Assembly: GCA_018335035.1 (NCBI GenBank)
Contig: JAGXKT010000027.1
Location: 1 to 32,050, forward strand
DNA: 32,050 bases
Source: Phycisphaerae bacterium
GTDB lineage: Bacteria > Planctomycetota > Phycisphaerae > SM23-33
Direction of reading: 5' to 3'
Below the pieces are notes generated by a model, which worked only from the letters and a program-made list of their open reading frames with translations, was not told the origin of the DNA and searched no databases. Below, piece by piece: positions 7,713 through 20,143 of the stretch (positions are counted from its first letter, which is position 1; the number at the start of each line of letters is the position of its first letter). The translations under genes were made by a program, and so were the position numbers.

Positions 7713-9008
7713 TCAGTCGCCCGTCTCGCCCGGGCCCGTTGTCTGAATGCCGATCTTCTCGAAGCCCGCCATACGAAGGGCGTTGAACGCGTCCACGACA
7801 TGCGCCCAGCGTGTGGTCTTGTCGGCGGCGAGGGTCGCCCGACAGTCCTCGCCCGGCGGGACCGCCTTGAGCCAGCGCTGCAGCGCCTCGGGCGTCAGTT
7901 CGGCATCGCCGGCGACGATTGTTCCGCCGCCGGTCACCGTGACCGTCAATTCCCCGGCCGTGACCTGCCGCGGGACCGGGTGGACCGGTACGTAGCCGCT
8001 TTCGGCGACCACGGACTGCCCGGCCGGCGTGGTCAGCCAGTCGCGCAGCGTCGCCGCCGCCGCTTCGTCGCCGAGGTCCTTGCGCGTGACGGCGTAGACC
8101 GGCGTGACCCAGCGGTATGCCCCGGATGCAATGGTTTCGCGAGACGGCATGACGTCGTCCACAGCCAGGATGTCCACGCGCGGGTTCGGCGACATCCGCT
8201 CGTTGTAGTAGTAGAACGTAAAGCCGATGCCCTGCGGATCGCCAGGAAGCTGCTCGTAGGGGCCCATCATGGTGAGGGCAACCGCGGACCGACCGGCCGT
8301 GATCGTCAACTCGCCCATGACGACGGACTGCATCGTCTCCTGGCTGCCGGAGTTGGGGTTGCGGACGTAGGCGTGGACCTCGCCCTTGCCGCCGGCGGCT
8401 TGCCAGGACGTGATCTTGCCGGCGTAGATGCCCTTGATCTGCTCGGCCGTGAGCCCCTTGACCGGGTTCTCCGCGTGGCGGAGAAACACGAACGCGTCCA
8501 GGGCGATCGGCGTCAGTTCCAGCTCGACACCCTTGTCGGCCATCAGCTTCCGCTCATCGGCGCTCGGCGGGCGGCATTCGTAAATCAGGTCGCACTCGCC
8601 GGCGATCAGTCGCGTGTATCCGGTGTGCGTGCCTTGGTGCCACGTCTTGCCCTTCAGCGCCGCGTGTATGAGGAGGTCGTGCAATCCGGGCAGCAGCGTC
8701 GCCCCGCCGACCTGCGGGCTCGGGGTCGTGCGTACGACGGGCACCAGGCGGGCCTGCAGGGGCTGCCGCCCGAAGCGGCTGGAGGCGTCACACCACTGAC
8801 AGGCCGTGCCGGTCAGCCGGCAGGCGACGGTCACGCCCAGGGGATGGGCGGACGTGGACCCGCCGGTCGTCGGGTAGTCCTTGGGCTCAAAAGCCAGGCC
8901 GACATCCTCAATCGCCGCGGCCGAGGGTTCGTCCGCCGCCAGTCCCACATGCCCCGCGGCCGCCATCATCGCCACCAGCACGCCCGTCGCGATACGTCGC
9001 GTTGTCAT
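7713..9008 (-). CDS. PstS-like phosphate-binding protein fused to an ExbD/TolR-like C-terminal domain
   Basis: The ATG at 9006-9008 has GAAAGG upstream and opens directly into a signal peptide (MTTRRIATGVLVAMMAAAG), giving 431 residues. Residues ~40-350 are a PstS-type periplasmic binding domain: GGSTSAHPL near the N-terminus for phosphate contact, then FVFLRHAENPVKGLTAEQI and the typical IYAGKITSWQAAGGKG and RNPNSGSQETM. Residues ~353-431 do not belong to PstS. They match the periplasmic half of ExbD/TolR (LTVTVTGGGTIVAGDAELT, then AADKTTRWAHVVDAFNALR and AGFEKIGIQTT), without the usual N-terminal transmembrane helix. PstS delivers phosphate to PstCAB, but no pst transporter genes are in view. 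The frame continues upstream of 9008 without a stop, but that extension is the remains of another gene. Confidence 0.82.
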   Translation of the reverse strand: MTTRRIATGVLVAMMAAAGHVGLAADEPSAAAIEDVGLAFEPKDYPTTGGSTSAHPLGVTVACRLTGTACQWCDASSRFGRQPLQARLVPVVRTTPSPQVGGATLLPGLHDLLIHAALKGKTWHQGTHTGYTRLIAGECDLIYECRPPSADERKLMADKGVELELTPIALDAFVFLRHAENPVKGLTAEQIKGIYAGKITSWQAAGGKGEVHAYVRNPNSGSQETMQSVVMGELTITAGRSAVALTMMGPYEQLPGDPQGIGFTFYYYNERMSPNPRVDILAVDDVMPSRETIASGAYRWVTPVYAVTRKDLGDEAAAATLRDWLTTPAGQSVVAESGYVPVHPVPRQVTAGELTVTVTGGGTIVAGDAELTPEALQRWLKAVPPGEDCRATLAADKTTRWAHVVDAFNALRMAGFEKIGIQTTGPGETGD

Positions 9009-9106
9009 TGCGCAGTCCTTTCCGTTACAGAAACCCGCATCATGCCTACCTGTTGGCATCAGACGCGTCAACGGCCGACATGTTCCCCACAAATGACGCC
9101 TGCGGT

Positions 9107-9408
9107 TCAATGCCGTCGCCGGCGGGCGACCAGCATGACCAGGCCGCCAAGGGCAAACAGGCCGGAGGCCGGCTCCAGCAGCGTGGCGCGCCAGGCCTCG
9201 GTCCGCCCGTCCGGGTCGAGCCCGACGCGCGCGCATCCGGCAACGGTGGTTCCGTCGGCGGAAACGTCTTGGGCGACGCTGTATGCGGGCCCGGCGTCCA
9301 GGAAGCAGGAAGCCCAACCCGCATAAATTGTTGGCCCGGGCGACGCCGGCGCACAGGCCGACCCCCACACCAAACGAACACAGCACACGACAGATAGCGC
9401 AGAAGCAT
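9107..9408 (-). pseudogene. Frame-broken short PEP-CTERM/HAF-repeat protein
   Basis: An ATG at 9406-9408 follows a strong GAGGAG site, yet its own frame soon turns into Arg/Pro-rich nonsense. A sensible protein appears only if the reading frame shifts twice, each time by skipping one base: near the G5 tract at 9362-9366 and near 9293-9299. The restored product of ~100 residues has a signal peptide ending in GVARA, then NLCGLGFLLPG, a HAF-like stretch AYSVAQDVSADGTTVAG, and a C-terminal sorting signal LEPASGLFALGGLVMLVARRRRH. That tail is the PEP-CTERM signal (here LEP) recognised by exosortases, and an exosortase gene is in this window. The gene is either decayed or has two sequencing errors. 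Even when repaired it holds only one HAF-like unit, shorter than usual. Confidence 0.62.
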
Positions 9409-9488
9409 GGCGACTCTCCTCTTTCAAACAGCGCGTGTGAGCGACAGCGATGCGTGTGAGTGAGCAACACGACACAACGACCGCCGAC

Positions 9489-11176: not shown

Positions 11177-14100
11177 ATGAACGCGAAGCACTTACCGTTG
11201 AAGTTCGCGATGGTGGCGGTTGCCGTGGCCATCTGCATAGGGCTGCTGTCGACGCAAGGACTCCAGCAGGGCATCGATCTGCGCGGCGGGCACAGTCTGA
11301 TCTTCGAGATCCGCAGCAACGAGATGGAACTCGAGCGGCTCAGCGAGCAACGCCAGTCCCTTCGTGTCGCACTGCGGCAGGCGGAACAGGCCGACGACGC
11401 CGAACAGGCCGAGAAACTTCGTCGCGACGTCGAGCGCATCGAGGCGGACATCGAGCATCTCGAACGGGCCCCCGCCGCGGCCGGTCGCACCGAAGACATG
11501 ATCGCGGTCATTAAGGGGCGGCTCGACCCGCAGGGCCTGGCGGGCGTGGAGGTCCGTCCGGTAGGCAGCAACCGCATTGAGGTTCGCATCCCCGCCGCGG
11601 GCAAGGAGACCCAACAGGCCAAAAGCGCCTACCAGGCGGCCTTGGAGGACCTCGAGCGCGGCAACCTGACCCAGGGCGACCTGCGCCGGCTCGTGGAGAC
11701 CTACCGCCGGGTCGGCGACATGGACGCCCTCAGCGATCGCGTCCGCGAATTGGCTCACGGCAACGCGGACCAGATCGCGCGGATCGAGACGGTCTTGACG
11801 ACGTACGACGAGATCGTCGCCGCCCAACGGGCCATAAAGGCCGTCGAGACAAAGGCGAGCATCGCCAACAAGGCCGCCCGGCTGCTGGCGGCCGTCACGA
11901 AGGCACAGACCGACCTGACCGAGGCGCGCCGGAGACACGCCGATGCCGCCGAAGCGCTGAATGCGGCGCAGCAGGATCTCGCCGCGTTGGGCCCGGGCGA
12001 GCCGACCGACGCGCCCGGCGAACTCGCCGAGCAACTCGCCGAGGCCCGCGCCGCCGTCGAGCGCCAACAGGCGACACTGCGCGGCGCGGAGGAAGCCCTC
12101 GACCAGGCGACCGGGGACCTCGAGGCCGCCACCGAGGCGGTCACGGCCGGTGCGGCGTTCGTGGTGGCGCATGATCGCCTCCAGGCCGCCCGCGAGGCCG
12201 GCGATGCCGACGCCGTCGCCGACGCCCAGGAGACATACGATGACGCCGTCGAGGCGATCCGCGGGTTGCTGGCGGTCGACGCGGCAGCCAGGCAGGCCGA
12301 CGCCGCCGACGCGGACGCCCAGGCCGACGCCGCCGCGGCGTTGGAAGCGGCCCGGCAGCGCGCCGCCAAGCGCATCGAGGCCGTGGCGGACCTGGCCGCC
12401 GGTGCTGATCTGTCGGCCTTGGCCGATCAGGCCAATGACATCGCTGCCCAGCGCGATAAGGCCGTGGGGACCGCCGGCAAGGCCCTGGACAAGGCCCAGG
12501 ACGCCCACGCCACGGCGCGGCAGGCGGCCGTCGAACTCGGCTCCGTCCGCCAGGCCGAACTCGAACGCGACGTGCTGAGTTTCTACGTGCCGCCGCGCGA
12601 GGCCGAGGCCAGCAGCGGCGAATCGCACGAGCGGGCCGTCGCGCAGAAGATGGAGACGTTCAGAACCGCAAAACGGGAACTCCTCCAGGCGCACCCGGCG
12701 CGCCGGGAGCAGATCGAGAAGGTAATCGCGGCCTACACGGCGTGGATGGACCTGCGGCGTCCGCTGGACGATCCCGAGGACGTCAAGCGAATCATCGCCA
12801 AAGCCGGGGTGCTGGAGTTCCGCATTGTCCCGTCCTTGCCCGGCGGCGGCGCGTACACGATCGATCCGGACACGTTCCGCCGTTACAGGCGCCTGCTCGA
12901 GCAGGAAGGCCCCGAGGAGGTCCGCAAACGCGACGAGCAGTTCATCTGGCTGCCGCTGAGCGGTGAGCGGGGTGATCACTTCGGCGGCTTGCCCGTCATT
13001 CGCAACTGGGGCGAGCAGTATGCCCACGCCGACGGCAAGTGGTACATCCTCTGCTGCAACACCGAGCCGCTGACCATGCTGCACGAGAAGCCCCCCGGCG
13101 GCTGGACGCTGACCGACGCCTACCCCACCTCCGACGACATGGGCCGCCCGGCCGTGGGGTTTGAATTCGACGCCCGCGGGGCCAAGCTCTTCGCCCAACT
13201 GACGAGCGCCCACACCGGCAAGCCCATGGCCGTCATGGTCGACGACGTCGTCTACTCGGCGCCGGTGATCCAATCGACGATCTCGTCCAAAGGCATCATT
13301 ACGGGGCAGTTCACGCGGACCAAGACGGAGCAACTGGCCCGGACGCTGCAGGCCGGCTCCTTGCCGGCGCGGCTGAACTCCGACCCGGTCGCGGAGAACA
13401 CGTTCGGCCCGTCGATCGGCCAGGTCAACCGCGAGCGCGGCTTCCGCGCGGCGATCTGGGGATTGATCCTCGTGGCGGGCTTCATGCTGATCTACTACAT
13501 GCTGGCGGGCCTTCTGGCGGACGTGGCGCTGCTGTTGAACATCATTCTCGTGCTGGGCGCGATGAGCGCGCTGTCGACGGTGTTCACGCTTCCGGGCATC
13601 GCGGGGGTGATCCTGACCATTGGCATCGCCGTGGACGCGAACGTGCTGATTTTCGAGCGGCTGCGCGAGGAGCAGGCCAAGGGCCAATCGGTCCGCATGA
13701 CGCTGACCAACGCCTATCAGCGCGCGTTCAGCGCGATCTTCGACGCGAACGTCACCACGCTGATCACGTGTCTGATTCTCGCCTGGGTCGGCAGCGAGGA
13801 AGTGCGCGGGTTCGCGATCACGCTGGGCTTCGGTGTGGTGTTCAGCTTGTTCACCACGCTGGTTGTCACGCGCTGGCTGTTCCAGTTCCTGCTGGACCGG
13901 CGGTGGGTCAAACGCCCCGTGTTCATGCTGTCGATCCTCGGAACGCCGAAAGTCAACTGGATGAAGAAGCGGCACCTTTTCTGGGGCCTTTCGGTCGCCC
14001 TGATGGTGATGGGAATCGCCTCGCTGCTGTGGCAGAAGGGCGACATCCTGGGCATCGAGTTCTCCTCGGGCACGCAGTACGTCGTGCAGTTGAAGGACGG

Positions 14101-15520
14101 CGCGCTGCTGACGGACCCCGACTCCGGCGAGCGGGTCCTGCCCGACGACGCCGTGGTCCGGCGGTTGTACGTCGCCGAAGCCCGCACGCAGGGCCACGAC
14201 AAGCTCGCCGAGACCGCGCGCGTCGAGACGCGGATCGACCCCGACCGGCTCAAGGCGTATCTCGCCGCGTACGACGACAACGGCGACGAGCGGATTGCCG
14301 CGGACGAAGCGCCGGGAACACAGGAATACTTCCGCCTGCTCGACAGCAACGGCGACGGGGCCCTGAGCCGCGGGGAACTGAACGAGAACCTGCCTCACAA
14401 GGATTACCAGATCTCCACGACCGTCACGGACGTGGACACGGTGCGGGCGCCGGCGACGGCCTTCGGTGACGCGCTGGAGACGCGACGGCCGCGCACGTTC
14501 GCCGCGCTGTCCGGAACGGCCCGGCGCCTGGGTGTGTCGCTCGGCGCCGCCGACCGCGGCATGCGGCGCATTGACGAGACGCTGGTCAGCAAGGCCGACG
14601 CGGCCTTCCGTCCCGAACTGGAGTCCTTCAAGGGCGGAGCCCTGTATGCGTTCGAGTCGGTCGCGCCGGCGATCACGCCACGCGAGATGGCCGCGCGGAT
14701 CAGCGACATGCGCCGCCAGATCGACTTCTCCGACCATCGCTTCGCGCGGACGAAGGTCATCCCCCTGGATGACGCGGTCGACGACGCTCACACCGCCCTG
14801 GCCGTGCTGGTCAAGCCCGCCGAGCCCGTCTCGCGCGCGCGCCTGGACGACTGGACCGCGAAGGAGCACGACCTGTTGACGGCGGCGTTCAGCCGTTCCG
14901 AGGCCGGCGAAACACGCAACTTCGACGCCGCCATCGCCGGCGAGATGGCCCAGCGGGCGATCCTGGCCGTCGTGCTGAGCTGGCTGGCGATCGTCGGCTA
15001 CCTGTGGTTCCGGTTCGGGTCGGTGCGGTGGGGCCTGGCCGCCGTGGTGTGCCTGATTCACGACGTGGTCATCGTCGTGGGCATGGTCGCCGCCAGCGGG
15101 TGGCTGTACAAGACGTGGCTCGGCGACGCGGTGGGGCTCAGTTCGTTCAAGATCGACCTGGCGATGATTGCCGCGATCCTGACGGTCATCGGCTACTCGG
15201 TCAACGACACGATTGTCGTCTTCGATCGCATCCGCGAGAACCGCGGCAAGCTGACGACGGTCTCCAGCGAGGTGATCAACCGCTCGATCAACCAGACGCT
15301 CAGCCGGACGCTGCTGACGTCGGGCACGACGTTCCTGGTGGTCGTCATCATGTACGCTTTCGGCGGCGAGGGCATTCACGCGTTCAGCTTCGCCCTGCTG
15401 GTCGGCGTGATCTTCGGGACGTATTCGTCGATCGCGGTGGCGAGCCCGCTGTTGATGGGCCTCAAGAAGGCCCTGGTCGCCCGTACCGTCGGCGAGCCGG
15501 GAGCCGAACCGGCAAGCTGA
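11177..15520 (+). CDS. secDF: Protein translocase SecDF fusion with a large insertion and EF-hands
   Basis: The ATG at 11177 has GGAAG upstream and gives 1447 residues, far longer than usual SecDF fusions. SecDF uses the proton gradient to pull proteins through SecYEG on the periplasmic side. Residues ~10-28 are TM1, followed by the SecD motif GIDLRGG (32-38). P1 begins (GRLDPQGLAGVEV, then RIEVRIP ~134-140), is interrupted by an Ala/Glu/Asp-rich, coiled-coil-like insertion at ~145-530, and resumes at VKRIIAKAGVLEFRIV (536-551). The SecD membrane block has GIAVDANVLIFERLREE with its conserved Asp and Arg. The SecF half starts near residue 930 and carries GIEFSSGTQY, two EF-hand loops (1033-1044, 1056-1067) and IGYSVNDTIVVFDRIREN. 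No yajC gene is adjacent. A lipoprotein gene follows at 111 bp. Confidence 0.93.
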   Translation: MNAKHLPLKFAMVAVAVAICIGLLSTQGLQQGIDLRGGHSLIFEIRSNEMELERLSEQRQSLRVALRQAEQADDAEQAEKLRRDVERIEADIEHLERAPAAAGRTEDMIAVIKGRLDPQGLAGVEVRPVGSNRIEVRIPAAGKETQQAKSAYQAALEDLERGNLTQGDLRRLVETYRRVGDMDALSDRVRELAHGNADQIARIETVLTTYDEIVAAQRAIKAVETKASIANKAARLLAAVTKAQTDLTEARRRHADAAEALNAAQQDLAALGPGEPTDAPGELAEQLAEARAAVERQQATLRGAEEALDQATGDLEAATEAVTAGAAFVVAHDRLQAAREAGDADAVADAQETYDDAVEAIRGLLAVDAAARQADAADADAQADAAAALEAARQRAAKRIEAVADLAAGADLSALADQANDIAAQRDKAVGTAGKALDKAQDAHATARQAAVELGSVRQAELERDVLSFYVPPREAEASSGESHERAVAQKMETFRTAKRELLQAHPARREQIEKVIAAYTAWMDLRRPLDDPEDVKRIIAKAGVLEFRIVPSLPGGGAYTIDPDTFRRYRRLLEQEGPEEVRKRDEQFIWLPLSGERGDHFGGLPVIRNWGEQYAHADGKWYILCCNTEPLTMLHEKPPGGWTLTDAYPTSDDMGRPAVGFEFDARGAKLFAQLTSAHTGKPMAVMVDDVVYSAPVIQSTISSKGIITGQFTRTKTEQLARTLQAGSLPARLNSDPVAENTFGPSIGQVNRERGFRAAIWGLILVAGFMLIYYMLAGLLADVALLLNIILVLGAMSALSTVFTLPGIAGVILTIGIAVDANVLIFERLREEQAKGQSVRMTLTNAYQRAFSAIFDANVTTLITCLILAWVGSEEVRGFAITLGFGVVFSLFTTLVVTRWLFQFLLDRRWVKRPVFMLSILGTPKVNWMKKRHLFWGLSVALMVMGIASLLWQKGDILGIEFSSGTQYVVQLKDGALLTDPDSGERVLPDDAVVRRLYVAEARTQGHDKLAETARVETRIDPDRLKAYLAAYDDNGDERIAADEAPGTQEYFRLLDSNGDGALSRGELNENLPHKDYQISTTVTDVDTVRAPATAFGDALETRRPRTFAALSGTARRLGVSLGAADRGMRRIDETLVSKADAAFRPELESFKGGALYAFESVAPAITPREMAARISDMRRQIDFSDHRFARTKVIPLDDAVDDAHTALAVLVKPAEPVSRARLDDWTAKEHDLLTAAFSRSEAGETRNFDAAIAGEMAQRAILAVVLSWLAIVGYLWFRFGSVRWGLAAVVCLIHDVVIVVGMVAASGWLYKTWLGDAVGLSSFKIDLAMIAAILTVIGYSVNDTIVVFDRIRENRGKLTTVSSEVINRSINQTLSRTLLTSGTTFLVVVIMYAFGGEGIHAFSFALLVGVIFGTYSSIAVASPLLMGLKKALVARTVGEPGAEPAS

Positions 15521-15631
15521 CGCGCCCAACGCCGCGCGTCCCGGCGGACCGAAGCGCGCCTCGGGGCGCCGATCACAGGGTGCACCAGCGGCGCGTCGAC
15601 GAACGGGCCGGACACATGGAGGCATGCGCCC

Positions 15632-17194
15632 GTGGGTAGACGCGGCGGACATCTTCTGGCCTGCCTGCTTCTGGCGTGCGGGTGCGCGTCGCTGCGCGGG
15701 ACGTCGGACGGCGACGTGGCGTCCCCGAAGCTGCCGCCCCTGTCCGTCCAGCAGGCCCGGACCTACCCGGAGACCGTCACGGGGCGGTTCGTGCCGCTGG
15801 CCGACTTCGAAGACGTTGCAGGCGTCCGGGCCGGCCGCGCCCAGCAGCACGACTTCGCTCTCAGTCCGGCGCCGCGTCGCACCTCGCCCGACGAACCGCC
15901 GCCTCCGCCCGGCGAGGTGCGCTTCACCCTGAGACGCACGCGAACGGGCATCGGGGCGCTGGAGGTGCTCGCGCCGACAGGGCGGGAACTGCGGTACACG
16001 CCGCCGACGCGCGATTTCACGGGCTATACGCTTATGAGCATCGCGATTCATAGCCCGACGATTCGAGATGATTTCCGCGTGCAGCTGGTCACACGATCGG
16101 GCTCATGGGTCTCACGCCGTCAGCTTCTGCGTGCCGGTTGGAATACGGTCCAGGTCGACATCCGCCGCCCGGACCGGCAACGCGAGGTTGATCTGACGGA
16201 CGTGCGTCGCGTGGCGATGGGGTTCTCCGATGCGGCCGGGCCGGTCCGCTTCGTCGTGGACGACGTCATATTGATCGACAACGCGCGGACGCTGCAGCCG
16301 GCGCCGGACGGCATGATGCTGCGCAAGGACGGGCTGGACTACACGGTAGCGATGGCGGATGGGCCGACGTATACGCTATCGGCCGGGACGGACGGGCTCT
16401 GGCGGCTGGGCGACCACCAGGCCGTCCTGGCCGTGACGGACGCACCCCGAGCGCCGCCGCAGCGCGAGGCACTGGCGTTGTTCGGCCGGCGACGCATCGC
16501 GCGGGTCGAGTTGATCGAACACAACGCGGTGCGCGTGCGCTTGGCGAGCACGTGGTACTTCCCCGCGCGGCGCGGTGCATGGGCGTCGGAGGCGATCCGC
16601 CGCGTGCGGTGGACGTACACCTTCTACCGCGACGGGCGTCGCGTCACGCATCTGGTGATCAACAACGCCGGGGGACGCAAGATCGGCGCCGTGCGCATTC
16701 GCCCCGCCTCTCGCTGCGCGCGAAGCGGACGCCCCGCCGTCGACGAGATCGTCGCCGAGAACTTCGCCGGGCCGGTCGGGCGGTGGAGTTGGCTGTGCGT
16801 CGCCGCCAACGATGCCGGTCGCCCGCCGCCAAGCGCCGAGACCGTACGACGCCGCTACGCCCACCCCGCCACCATCCGCCCCGTGCTGGTCGGCCGGCGG
16901 GCGTCCCGAAGCGGGCAGGCCGCGGGCTTCGATGCGTCCGAAGGGTGCTACGTCGTCCACGCCCGCGCGGGCAACTGCCGCTTCGTGGTCGTGCCGCCGT
17001 CCGACGGGCTGGAATCGCCGGTCTTTCGCGTGGTCGGGCGATGGGCCGCAACGCCAAGCGTCAACTGCGCCGGCCGGGCCGTGCGACGGATCGTCCGCCT
17101 GTCCGACGGATCGATCCTGTTCGCGCTTCCCGGACGTCTGGAGCGGCCCACGCCGGTGGAAGTCGCCGGAACATCCCCGCCGGGCGAGACGTAA
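15632..17194 (+). CDS. Putative lipoprotein of unknown function
   Basis: A GTG start with GGAGG 9 bases upstream gives 520 residues. The N-terminus MGRRGGHLLACLLLACGCAS is a lipoprotein signal peptide, with C16 the likeliest lipidated Cys and C18 an alternative. Residues ~50-215 look like a galactose-binding/CIA30-like beta-sandwich: FVPLADFEDVAGV, then GYTLMSIAIHSP, GWNTVQVDIRRP and VRFVVDDVILIDN. The rest (~220-520) is beta-rich and Arg-rich, with segments such as RVRWTYTFYRDGRRVTHLVINN and CYVVHARAGNCRFVVVPPSDG; I recognise no family there. It follows secDF by 111 bp on the same strand and could share its transcript. A surface or periplasmic carbohydrate-related role is a guess from the fold. 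An ATG at 15624 is in another frame and short, so it was rejected. Confidence 0.7.
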   Translation: MGRRGGHLLACLLLACGCASLRGTSDGDVASPKLPPLSVQQARTYPETVTGRFVPLADFEDVAGVRAGRAQQHDFALSPAPRRTSPDEPPPPPGEVRFTLRRTRTGIGALEVLAPTGRELRYTPPTRDFTGYTLMSIAIHSPTIRDDFRVQLVTRSGSWVSRRQLLRAGWNTVQVDIRRPDRQREVDLTDVRRVAMGFSDAAGPVRFVVDDVILIDNARTLQPAPDGMMLRKDGLDYTVAMADGPTYTLSAGTDGLWRLGDHQAVLAVTDAPRAPPQREALALFGRRRIARVELIEHNAVRVRLASTWYFPARRGAWASEAIRRVRWTYTFYRDGRRVTHLVINNAGGRKIGAVRIRPASRCARSGRPAVDEIVAENFAGPVGRWSWLCVAANDAGRPPPSAETVRRRYAHPATIRPVLVGRRASRSGQAAGFDASEGCYVVHARAGNCRFVVVPPSDGLESPVFRVVGRWAATPSVNCAGRAVRRIVRLSDGSILFALPGRLERPTPVEVAGTSPPGET

Positions 17195-19144: not shown

Positions 19145-20143
19145 ATGACGAACGAACCCGCCCATGGGCATGCTGACCACTCGTCATCGCCCCACAGCGG
19201 GCGACTGGCGGACCTTGTTGCTGCGCCGACAGCGGCGCCGCGATTCAGCCAGGCCTTTCCGCCCGCGACCCTGGCCAAGATCGCCGTCATCACCGCGCTG
19301 TTCGTCTGGCTGACGGCGTGGCAGTATGAGGGGCTGGTCACCCGGTGGATCATCGACACGAACTGGTCCCACGGGTTCATCATCCCGTTGTTCAGCATGT
19401 TCCTGATCTACCTCCGCTGGGACGAGTTGCTCCGCGCGCCACGGCGCACCTGCCTGTGGGGCCTGCCGATCGTGCTGCTGGCTATCGTCGGCATGTTTGC
19501 CGGCGTCTGGCCCCTGCCCAACGCGATGCTGCAGCGGGCGAACATGGTGTTCCTGTTGTTCGGGCTCGTGCTCTACCTGGCCGGCCCGCATGTGATCCGC
19601 CTGACGTGGCTGCCGATCCTGTTCCTGTTGTTCGCCGTACCCCTTCCGGACCTGATCTACGGGCGCATCGCCGGCCCGTTGCAGGAAGTCGCCGCCAGCG
19701 GCTCGACCTTCCTGCTGCGGCTGTTCGGCGTGCAGATCCACGCCACGCGCAGCCACTTGCGGCTGTTGAGCGTCAACGGTAACGTCCACAACCTCACGGT
19801 TGCCGAGGCCTGCGCCGGGATGCGGCTGCTGATGGCGTTTGCGGCCCTGGGCGTGGCGATGGCATACGTGGAGACGCGGCCGCTGTGGCAGCGGATCACG
19901 CTGGTTCTGGCGGGCATTCCCATCGCGGTGTTGTGCAACGTCGTTCGGGTCACGATCACCTCGACCATGTACGTGCTGGACAAGCCCGAACTGGGGGATG
20001 ATTTCATGCACCATTTCACCGGCATGTTGATGCTCATCCCGGCGTTGGTGCTGCTGTGGCTGCTCAGTAAGCTGCTCCAGGCGCTGTTCGTGGAAGACGA
20101 GGAGGAGGACGCCTCCCCCGCCGGTACGGAGGGCACGGCATGA
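19145..20143 (+). CDS. Exosortase (XrtU/EpsH-type membrane transpeptidase)
   Basis: This 332-residue protein has about eight membrane helices after a ~40-residue hydrophilic N-terminus. Exosortases cleave C-terminal PEP-CTERM signals from exported proteins and usually accompany exopolysaccharide genes. The expected catalytic residues are present in order: Cys223 in VAEACAGMRLLMAF, Arg268 in VLCNVVRVTIT and a His pair at 289-290 in DDFMHHFTGMLM. The early WSHGFIIPLFSMFLIYLRW is also typical. The C-terminus is acidic (EDEEEDASP). The ribosome site is weak (AGAG). It overlaps the EpsI-like gene by 4 bases (ATGA). A frame-broken PEP-CTERM gene lies 10 kb upstream, so substrates probably sit mostly elsewhere in the genome. 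Subtype is inferred from the organism and the operon, not proven. Confidence 0.9.
   Translation: MTNEPAHGHADHSSSPHSGRLADLVAAPTAAPRFSQAFPPATLAKIAVITALFVWLTAWQYEGLVTRWIIDTNWSHGFIIPLFSMFLIYLRWDELLRAPRRTCLWGLPIVLLAIVGMFAGVWPLPNAMLQRANMVFLLFGLVLYLAGPHVIRLTWLPILFLLFAVPLPDLIYGRIAGPLQEVAASGSTFLLRLFGVQIHATRSHLRLLSVNGNVHNLTVAEACAGMRLLMAFAALGVAMAYVETRPLWQRITLVLAGIPIAVLCNVVRVTITSTMYVLDKPELGDDFMHHFTGMLMLIPALVLLWLLSKLLQALFVEDEEEDASPAGTEGTA

Follow-up and report, generated by a model that had tools for sequence, protein, structure and literature searches.

A gene of a Phycisphaerae bacterium encodes a PstS-like binding protein with a signal peptide and, at its C-terminus, the periplasmic domain of ExbD/TolR devoid of its membrane helix. 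The same half of ExbD was detected in about 20 further proteins of the class (L149-L168), most of them extracytoplasmic. It is tentatively proposed, at close to an even chance, that the ExbD tail provides an orphan oxyanion-binding protein with a soluble envelope module for docking to peptidoglycan and/or for dimerisation. A literature search on fused or soluble ExbD domains found no report.

Gene structure

The gene is located in a window of 32,050 nucleotides, which is the whole stretch of DNA analysed. Its features are the following:

7713-9008, minus strand: whole gene, 431 aa, PstS-like protein plus C-terminal ExbD/TolR periplasmic domain (translation, coding score, Pfam)
9016-9020, minus strand: Shine-Dalgarno sequence AAGGA, 7 nt before the ATG (sequence)
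8934-9008, minus strand: Sec-type signal peptide MTTRRIATGVLVAMMAAAGHVGLAA, residues 1-25, without a lipobox cysteine (sequence; hydrophobicity)
7983-8879, minus strand: PstS-like periplasmic binding domain, residues 44-342 (Pfam, NCBIfam, alignment, model matches)
7956-7982, minus strand: linker HPVPRQVTA, residues 343-351 (binding-domain relatives end just before it)
7737-7955, minus strand: ExbD/TolR periplasmic domain, residues 352-424, without transmembrane helix (Pfam, profiles, model)

The frame extends on the minus strand from the ATG at 9008-9006 to the stop codon at 7715-7713 (431 codons). A codon model trained on clear neighbouring genes assigned +0.40 bits/codon to the whole gene, +0.39 to the binding domain and +0.41 to the tail, with negative scores in the other two minus-strand frames and values of about zero or below on the opposite strand. 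A start at GTG 9470 (585 aa) was rejected since the in-frame upstream extension scores -0.51 bits/codon; this extension is non-coding by codon usage and the 431-aa start is therefore the right one. The junction had been described in the original prediction as continuous, with no stop or composition break, and the analysis bears this out: both domains are in one uninterrupted frame with GC of 0.69/0.70 and codon scores of 0.39/0.41 on either side, the domain borders fall between complete domains and the signal peptide is in front.

Directly upstream of the fusion gene there is a short frame that ends in a PEP-CTERM-like sorting signal, EPASGLFALGGLVMLVARRRRH (window 9108-9409, minus strand); its codon score is poor and it is probably the remnant of a PEP-CTERM gene. 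The same window also encodes a polysaccharide export cluster and an exosortase (Exosortase_EpsH, 19145-20143, plus strand). A 1,619-aa open frame antisense to SecDF (window 11192-16051, minus strand) is not a gene, it is an effect of high third-position GC.

The C-terminal domain belongs to the ExbD/TolR family

The identity of the tail as an ExbD/TolR domain is firm. On the whole protein PF02472 (ExbD) matched residues 349-424 with E 3e-5 and 24.5 bits, just under the cut-off of 25.4, which was exceeded in the genome-wide search (26.7 bits) and when the tail was scanned alone (28.4 bits, E 1.9e-6). The match spans profile positions 50-126 of 128, the membrane-helix part being absent, and is accompanied by weak matches to TIGR02803 (ExbD) and TIGR02801 (TolR). 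The scan of the tail alone retrieved no other Pfam family up to E 10, so that the tail is not an ordinary PstS extension. Against a profile of 12 canonical planctomycete ExbDs, most of which had been retrieved using the tail itself, the tail scored 55-59 bits (best of 2,000 shuffles, 7.0). The profile of 14 other transmembrane-less ExbD modules, which were found by Pfam and not selected for similarity to the tail, is a fairer test and gave 39-43 bits (best shuffle, 7.7). Comparison by hhalign yielded 99.1% with canonical ExbD (E 1.1e-18, 30% identity) and 97.3% with the other soluble modules (2e-11, 22%).

The structural models agree with this assignment. The six best PDB matches of an AlphaFold model of the tail (pLDDT 79), for which the alignment rows were ExbDs, are all ExbD/TolR, with TM-scores of 0.80-0.82 on target at ~2 Å for 8p9r and 8vgd. 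A second, full-length model built from PBP rows only, with no ExbD rows, reproduced the order E-E-E-H-E-H-E of the tail-only model at pLDDT about 60-80.

The tail has the fold, the secondary-structure order and the periplasmic core motif of ExbD/TolR (AD-x-T-x-x-W-x-x-VVDAFNA-x-x-x-AGF-x-KIGI), that is, the periplasmic alpha/beta domain of PF02472. Unlike ExbD/TolR, the fusion protein lacks the cytoplasmic start, the single N-terminal transmembrane helix with its proton-carrying aspartate and the NIBS segment, the tail beginning at about ExbD residue 63-66 and hence lacking the domain-closing NIBS strand; moreover, the domain follows a PBP and the gene is not beside exbB. A resemblance of ExbD to siderophore-binding proteins is mentioned in the literature. 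The possibility that the tail is a duplicated PBP lobe was considered and rejected, as it matches ExbD itself and no PBP.

Signal peptide and PstS-like domain

The signal peptide is the sole transmembrane-like/hydrophobic segment of the 431-aa protein. PF12849 (PBP_like_2) matches residues 124-327 with E 8.8e-22, and thus an ExbD/TolR domain behind a signal peptide and a domain of the phosphate-binding type, as originally described, is confirmed. The protein has the type II PBP fold of the PstS family together with an intact STS / R / R-x-x-x-SGS anion-binding signature. In an alignment with 32 relatives S51-T52-S53, R216 and S220-G221-S222 are invariant and R146 is kept in at least 90%; by position, these residues presumably correspond to the anion-holding loops of PstS. 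The top PDB matches of the full-length model are the phosphate-binding proteins 4q8r and 4gd5. In contrast to the PstS family, the score with TIGR02136 (PstS) is below the cut-off (105.6 vs 206.6 bits), the gene is an orphan with no adjacent pstCAB and, unlike the PstS relatives found, the protein carries an extra C-terminal domain.

The nearest relatives of the binding domain (L057 and L058, ~54 and 53% identity) are encoded in Lentisphaeria and Kiritimatiellae metagenome genomes, and those of the same family are more distant (~45% identity), suggesting that the PstS-like PBP may have been transferred between phyla. A lipobox is present in several relatives (L005, L006, L007). The idea that the ExbD tail replaces a lipid anchor was rejected, since L057, L058 and L047 have neither lipobox nor tail. 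PstS-like relatives in two genomes (G020 and G009) adjoin DUF4139-like proteins (L051:8580-14280, L053:6822-8615, L054:13975-15855), which rest on weak Pfam matches below cut-off, and a similar-looking protein is located 4 kb from a PstS-like relative in a third genome (G002).

Distribution of the fusion and of soluble ExbD modules

The same PstS-like/ExbD fusion was not found in 35 genomes of the same family, about 390 genomes of the phylum or the 80 nearest loci of a public collection, the latter searched for relatives with an alignment query (a single-sequence query gave no match). Among the ~90 closest relatives, the binding domain either terminates at 'GYVPL', only a few residues from the position where the fusion protein starts its linker, or is followed by an unrelated tail. 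In some Firmicutes relatives (L122, L125, L126) the C-terminus is extended by about 320 residues of other, unrelated sequence. A search with the tail only in 397 Phycisphaerae genomes retrieved ordinary ExbDs. The genus is represented by this one genome and, with one metagenome-assembled genome as the only source of the exact fusion, the event could be recent and even neutral. In the original prediction the case depended on finding the fusion in other genomes; none of those searched carries it, yet this measure is too narrow given the other proteins with the module.

Based on a PF02472 scan, transmembrane-less ExbD halves occur in 12 of the 35 genomes of the family (the fusion genome and 11 others). 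Outside the family they were matched in 7 of 29 checked Phycisphaerae genomes, a sample that was chosen and leans to genomes with more than two PF02472 matches. Within the family they are carried by the following proteins:

L149: PQQ_2 propeller protein with a C-terminal half-ExbD (E 7e-15)
L150: membrane protein terminating in a tandem pair of half-ExbDs (E 8.5e-21)
L151: one half-ExbD at the end of another membrane protein
L152: half-ExbD ending a beta-helix/CBM_6 protein (Beta_helix+CBM_6)
L155: two half-ExbDs in a lipoprotein-like HMBD/I42-inhibitor protein (Inhibitor_I42+HMBD), the second copy recognised by eye and alignment
L154: half-ExbD after a Thr/Pro-rich linker; a half-ExbD is also present in its relative L156
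L153, L157-L161: half-ExbD central in YdjY-domain proteins of several genera (YdjY assigned by NCBIfam on three proteins, on the remainder by likeness)

The partners outside the family, named by eye, are YdjY-like proteins, a beta-helix-like protein, an SH3b-like protein and a putative lipoprotein. As in the fusion protein, the module is a half-ExbD (profile from ~24-65 to ~125) on signal-peptide or membrane proteins and is mostly placed at or near the C-terminus, the YdjY proteins differing in this respect. Unlike in the fusion protein, none of the partners (PQQ_2, Beta_helix/CBM_6, I42, YdjY, SH3b-like or unknown) is a PBP. When scanned alone, several modules (L149, L150, L151 and L155) were above the Pfam cut-off; weak ones (E about 1e-3, e.g., L157 and L158) could singly be questioned. 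As a set, the modules matched canonical ExbD in a profile comparison with a probability of 98.9% (E 1.2e-17).

In a small tree the modules are scattered among canonical ExbDs, well-supported branches force at least two switches between module and canonical form and one origin of the modules appears in no bootstrap tree, so that judged from these sequences the soluble modules apparently stem from several captures. The fusion tail groups weakly with canonical ExbDs of the 'TVRW' type, a placement by which it probably derives from an ExbD captured independently.

Ton, Tol and Pst loci in the genome

The neighbours of the fusion gene checked in the window are UDPG_MGDP_dh, Glycos_transf_4, DNA_pol3_delta, SecDF and the exosortase; exbB, tonB and pst genes are absent from this set. 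The canonical PstS-PstC locus is on another contig (C76). Similarly, no exbB or tonB was seen near the relatives of the binding domain, where the original prediction had proposed to look for them. The only ExbBD locus of the genome (ExbB-ExbD-ExbD) is on contig C59 with von Willebrand-type proteins, and TonB (C48) and the TonB-dependent receptors are likewise on contigs other than that of the fusion gene. The C59 locus (L055:814-6580) encodes, one after another, two von Willebrand-type membrane proteins, one ExbB and two ExbDs, an arrangement that resembles the motor-driven vWA transducers described previously (PMC12204202). An apparent ExbB on contig C30 was rejected as a second Ton motor, being a MotA within a flagellar operon.

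Possible function of the soluble ExbD domain

Three abilities are known for the periplasmic domain alone, namely dimerisation, uptake of the TonB D-box peptide and peptidoglycan binding, with known cases of peptidoglycan or D-box binding in the ExbD and TolR of E. coli/Serratia (PMC10771500, PMC4646322, PMC10907165). Once the N-terminal (NIBS)/strand-swapped segments are released, the periplasmic domains of ExbD and TolR bind peptidoglycan in isolation (PMC10771500, PMC4646322). Binding of wild-type ExbD to peptidoglycan is only transient, the dimer being loosened (PMC10771500), and TolR binds only after the swapped end segments have been cut at both ends, residues 60-133 (PMC4646322).

In the proposed scenario an orphan PstS-like oxyanion-binding protein, predicted to be secreted, would have acquired a soluble C-terminal copy of the ExbD/TolR periplasmic domain. 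The fusion protein would be exported to the periplasm, where its PBP part may bind phosphate or a similar anion, as the kept signature suggests, and the ExbD module would retain the PBP in the cell envelope. By analogy with the isolated domains, retention may be achieved by docking to the glycan strands of peptidoglycan, and/or by pairing with itself, with another ExbD-type domain or with a beta-strand peptide. As the module begins after the NIBS region, it would be in the released, open state by construction, and the fusion protein would perform no proton-motive work.

The main argument for this reading is that the common denominator of a PQQ propeller, a beta-helix protein and a PBP is a place and not a motor: the partners are very unlike each other, and localisation, anchoring or oligomerisation is thus the simplest role common to them. 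In addition, the motor role of ExbD needs the ExbD membrane helix within ExbB, which argues against such a role in a protein that lacks one. As counter-evidence, the L150 and L151 modules are within proteins having several membrane helices, where an extra anchor is unneeded. Small envelope-binding domains appended to varied extracytoplasmic proteins are familiar from the peptidoglycan-anchoring domains of the OmpA/Pal type; these are a different family, and peptidoglycan binding is established for them whereas it is only inferred for the ExbD module. It is possible, rather than probable, that the soluble ExbD/TolR half is a mobile envelope module of Phycisphaerae that was acquired from motor proteins on more than one occasion. 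Comparable in use to the OmpA or SPOR domains of other systems, it would hold unrelated secreted proteins (binding proteins, PQQ propellers, beta-helix and YdjY proteins) at peptidoglycan or in dimers outside proton-motive machines.

The module may otherwise be mainly a protein-protein connector that dimerises the PBP or captures a beta-strand peptide (e.g., the TonB D-box) in the ExbD groove without peptidoglycan contact, which is unlikely but merits consideration: ExbD59-141, about the span of the tail, binds the TonB D-box 2:1 by beta-strand recruitment (PMC10907165), E. coli Leu132, required for D-box binding, corresponds to Ile421 of the tail (strand IGI in place of IGL), and the genome encodes a TonB. 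However, no D-box of the published pattern was evident, when read by eye, beside the membrane helix of this TonB, the genes around the fusion gene suggest no partner and D-box binding, being mainly via the backbone, is not confirmable from sequence. The original prediction also suggested that phosphate capture is coupled to a proton-motive TonB/Tol-type system, e.g., with the ligand-loaded PBP handed to an ExbBD motor. Although the genome has ExbB, two ExbDs, TonB and TonB-dependent receptors and the groove residues of the tail look permissive, this is very improbable, as there is no transmembrane helix and hence no proton-binding aspartate, no exbB, tonB or receptor gene was seen near the fusion gene or the relatives, phosphate uptake has its separate canonical PstS-PstC locus and such coupling would be senseless on the PQQ propellers, beta-helix and YdjY proteins bearing the same half. 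The use of the fold as a binding module, the other option raised in the original prediction, is the one favoured by its presence on unrelated extracytoplasmic proteins; that interpretation was half right and is partly supported.

A recent neutral accident in one lineage, placing an ExbD fragment in frame behind a dispensable PBP paralogue, would account for a fusion seen in only one of the genomes searched and for a tail whose hhalign comparison favours canonical ExbD over the other soluble modules. Such an event is nonetheless quite unlikely: the tail shows full coding bias, an intact domain and precise borders, it has diverged to about 30% identity from the canonical ExbDs compared while keeping the core motif, and parallel fusions are known in many genera. 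The draft state of the assembly (82 contigs) and the single genome also call to mind an artefact, i.e., a frameshift, a chimeric contig or an ExbD assignment wrongly given to an ordinary C-terminal extension of PstS. With an unbroken frame, an even coding score over the junction, borders exactly between complete domains, PstS domains of relatives that end at the linker start and a tail that matches no other family, this explanation is already refuted as far as sequence allows and can practically be discarded.

Concluding remarks

The role of peptidoglycan binding by ExbD/TolR is one of the questions in Ton/Tol motor function. The soluble envelope module proposed here would offer natural motor-free ExbD halves on easily assayed proteins, in which peptidoglycan binding would be testable by itself, and such halves would show a function of the ExbD domain independent of the proton channel. 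As phosphate uptake driven by a Ton motor is unsupported, a misleading annotation is removed. Taken singly the fusion is a curiosity; viewed as one instance of a soluble ExbD module that recurs, it deserves testing at the bench.
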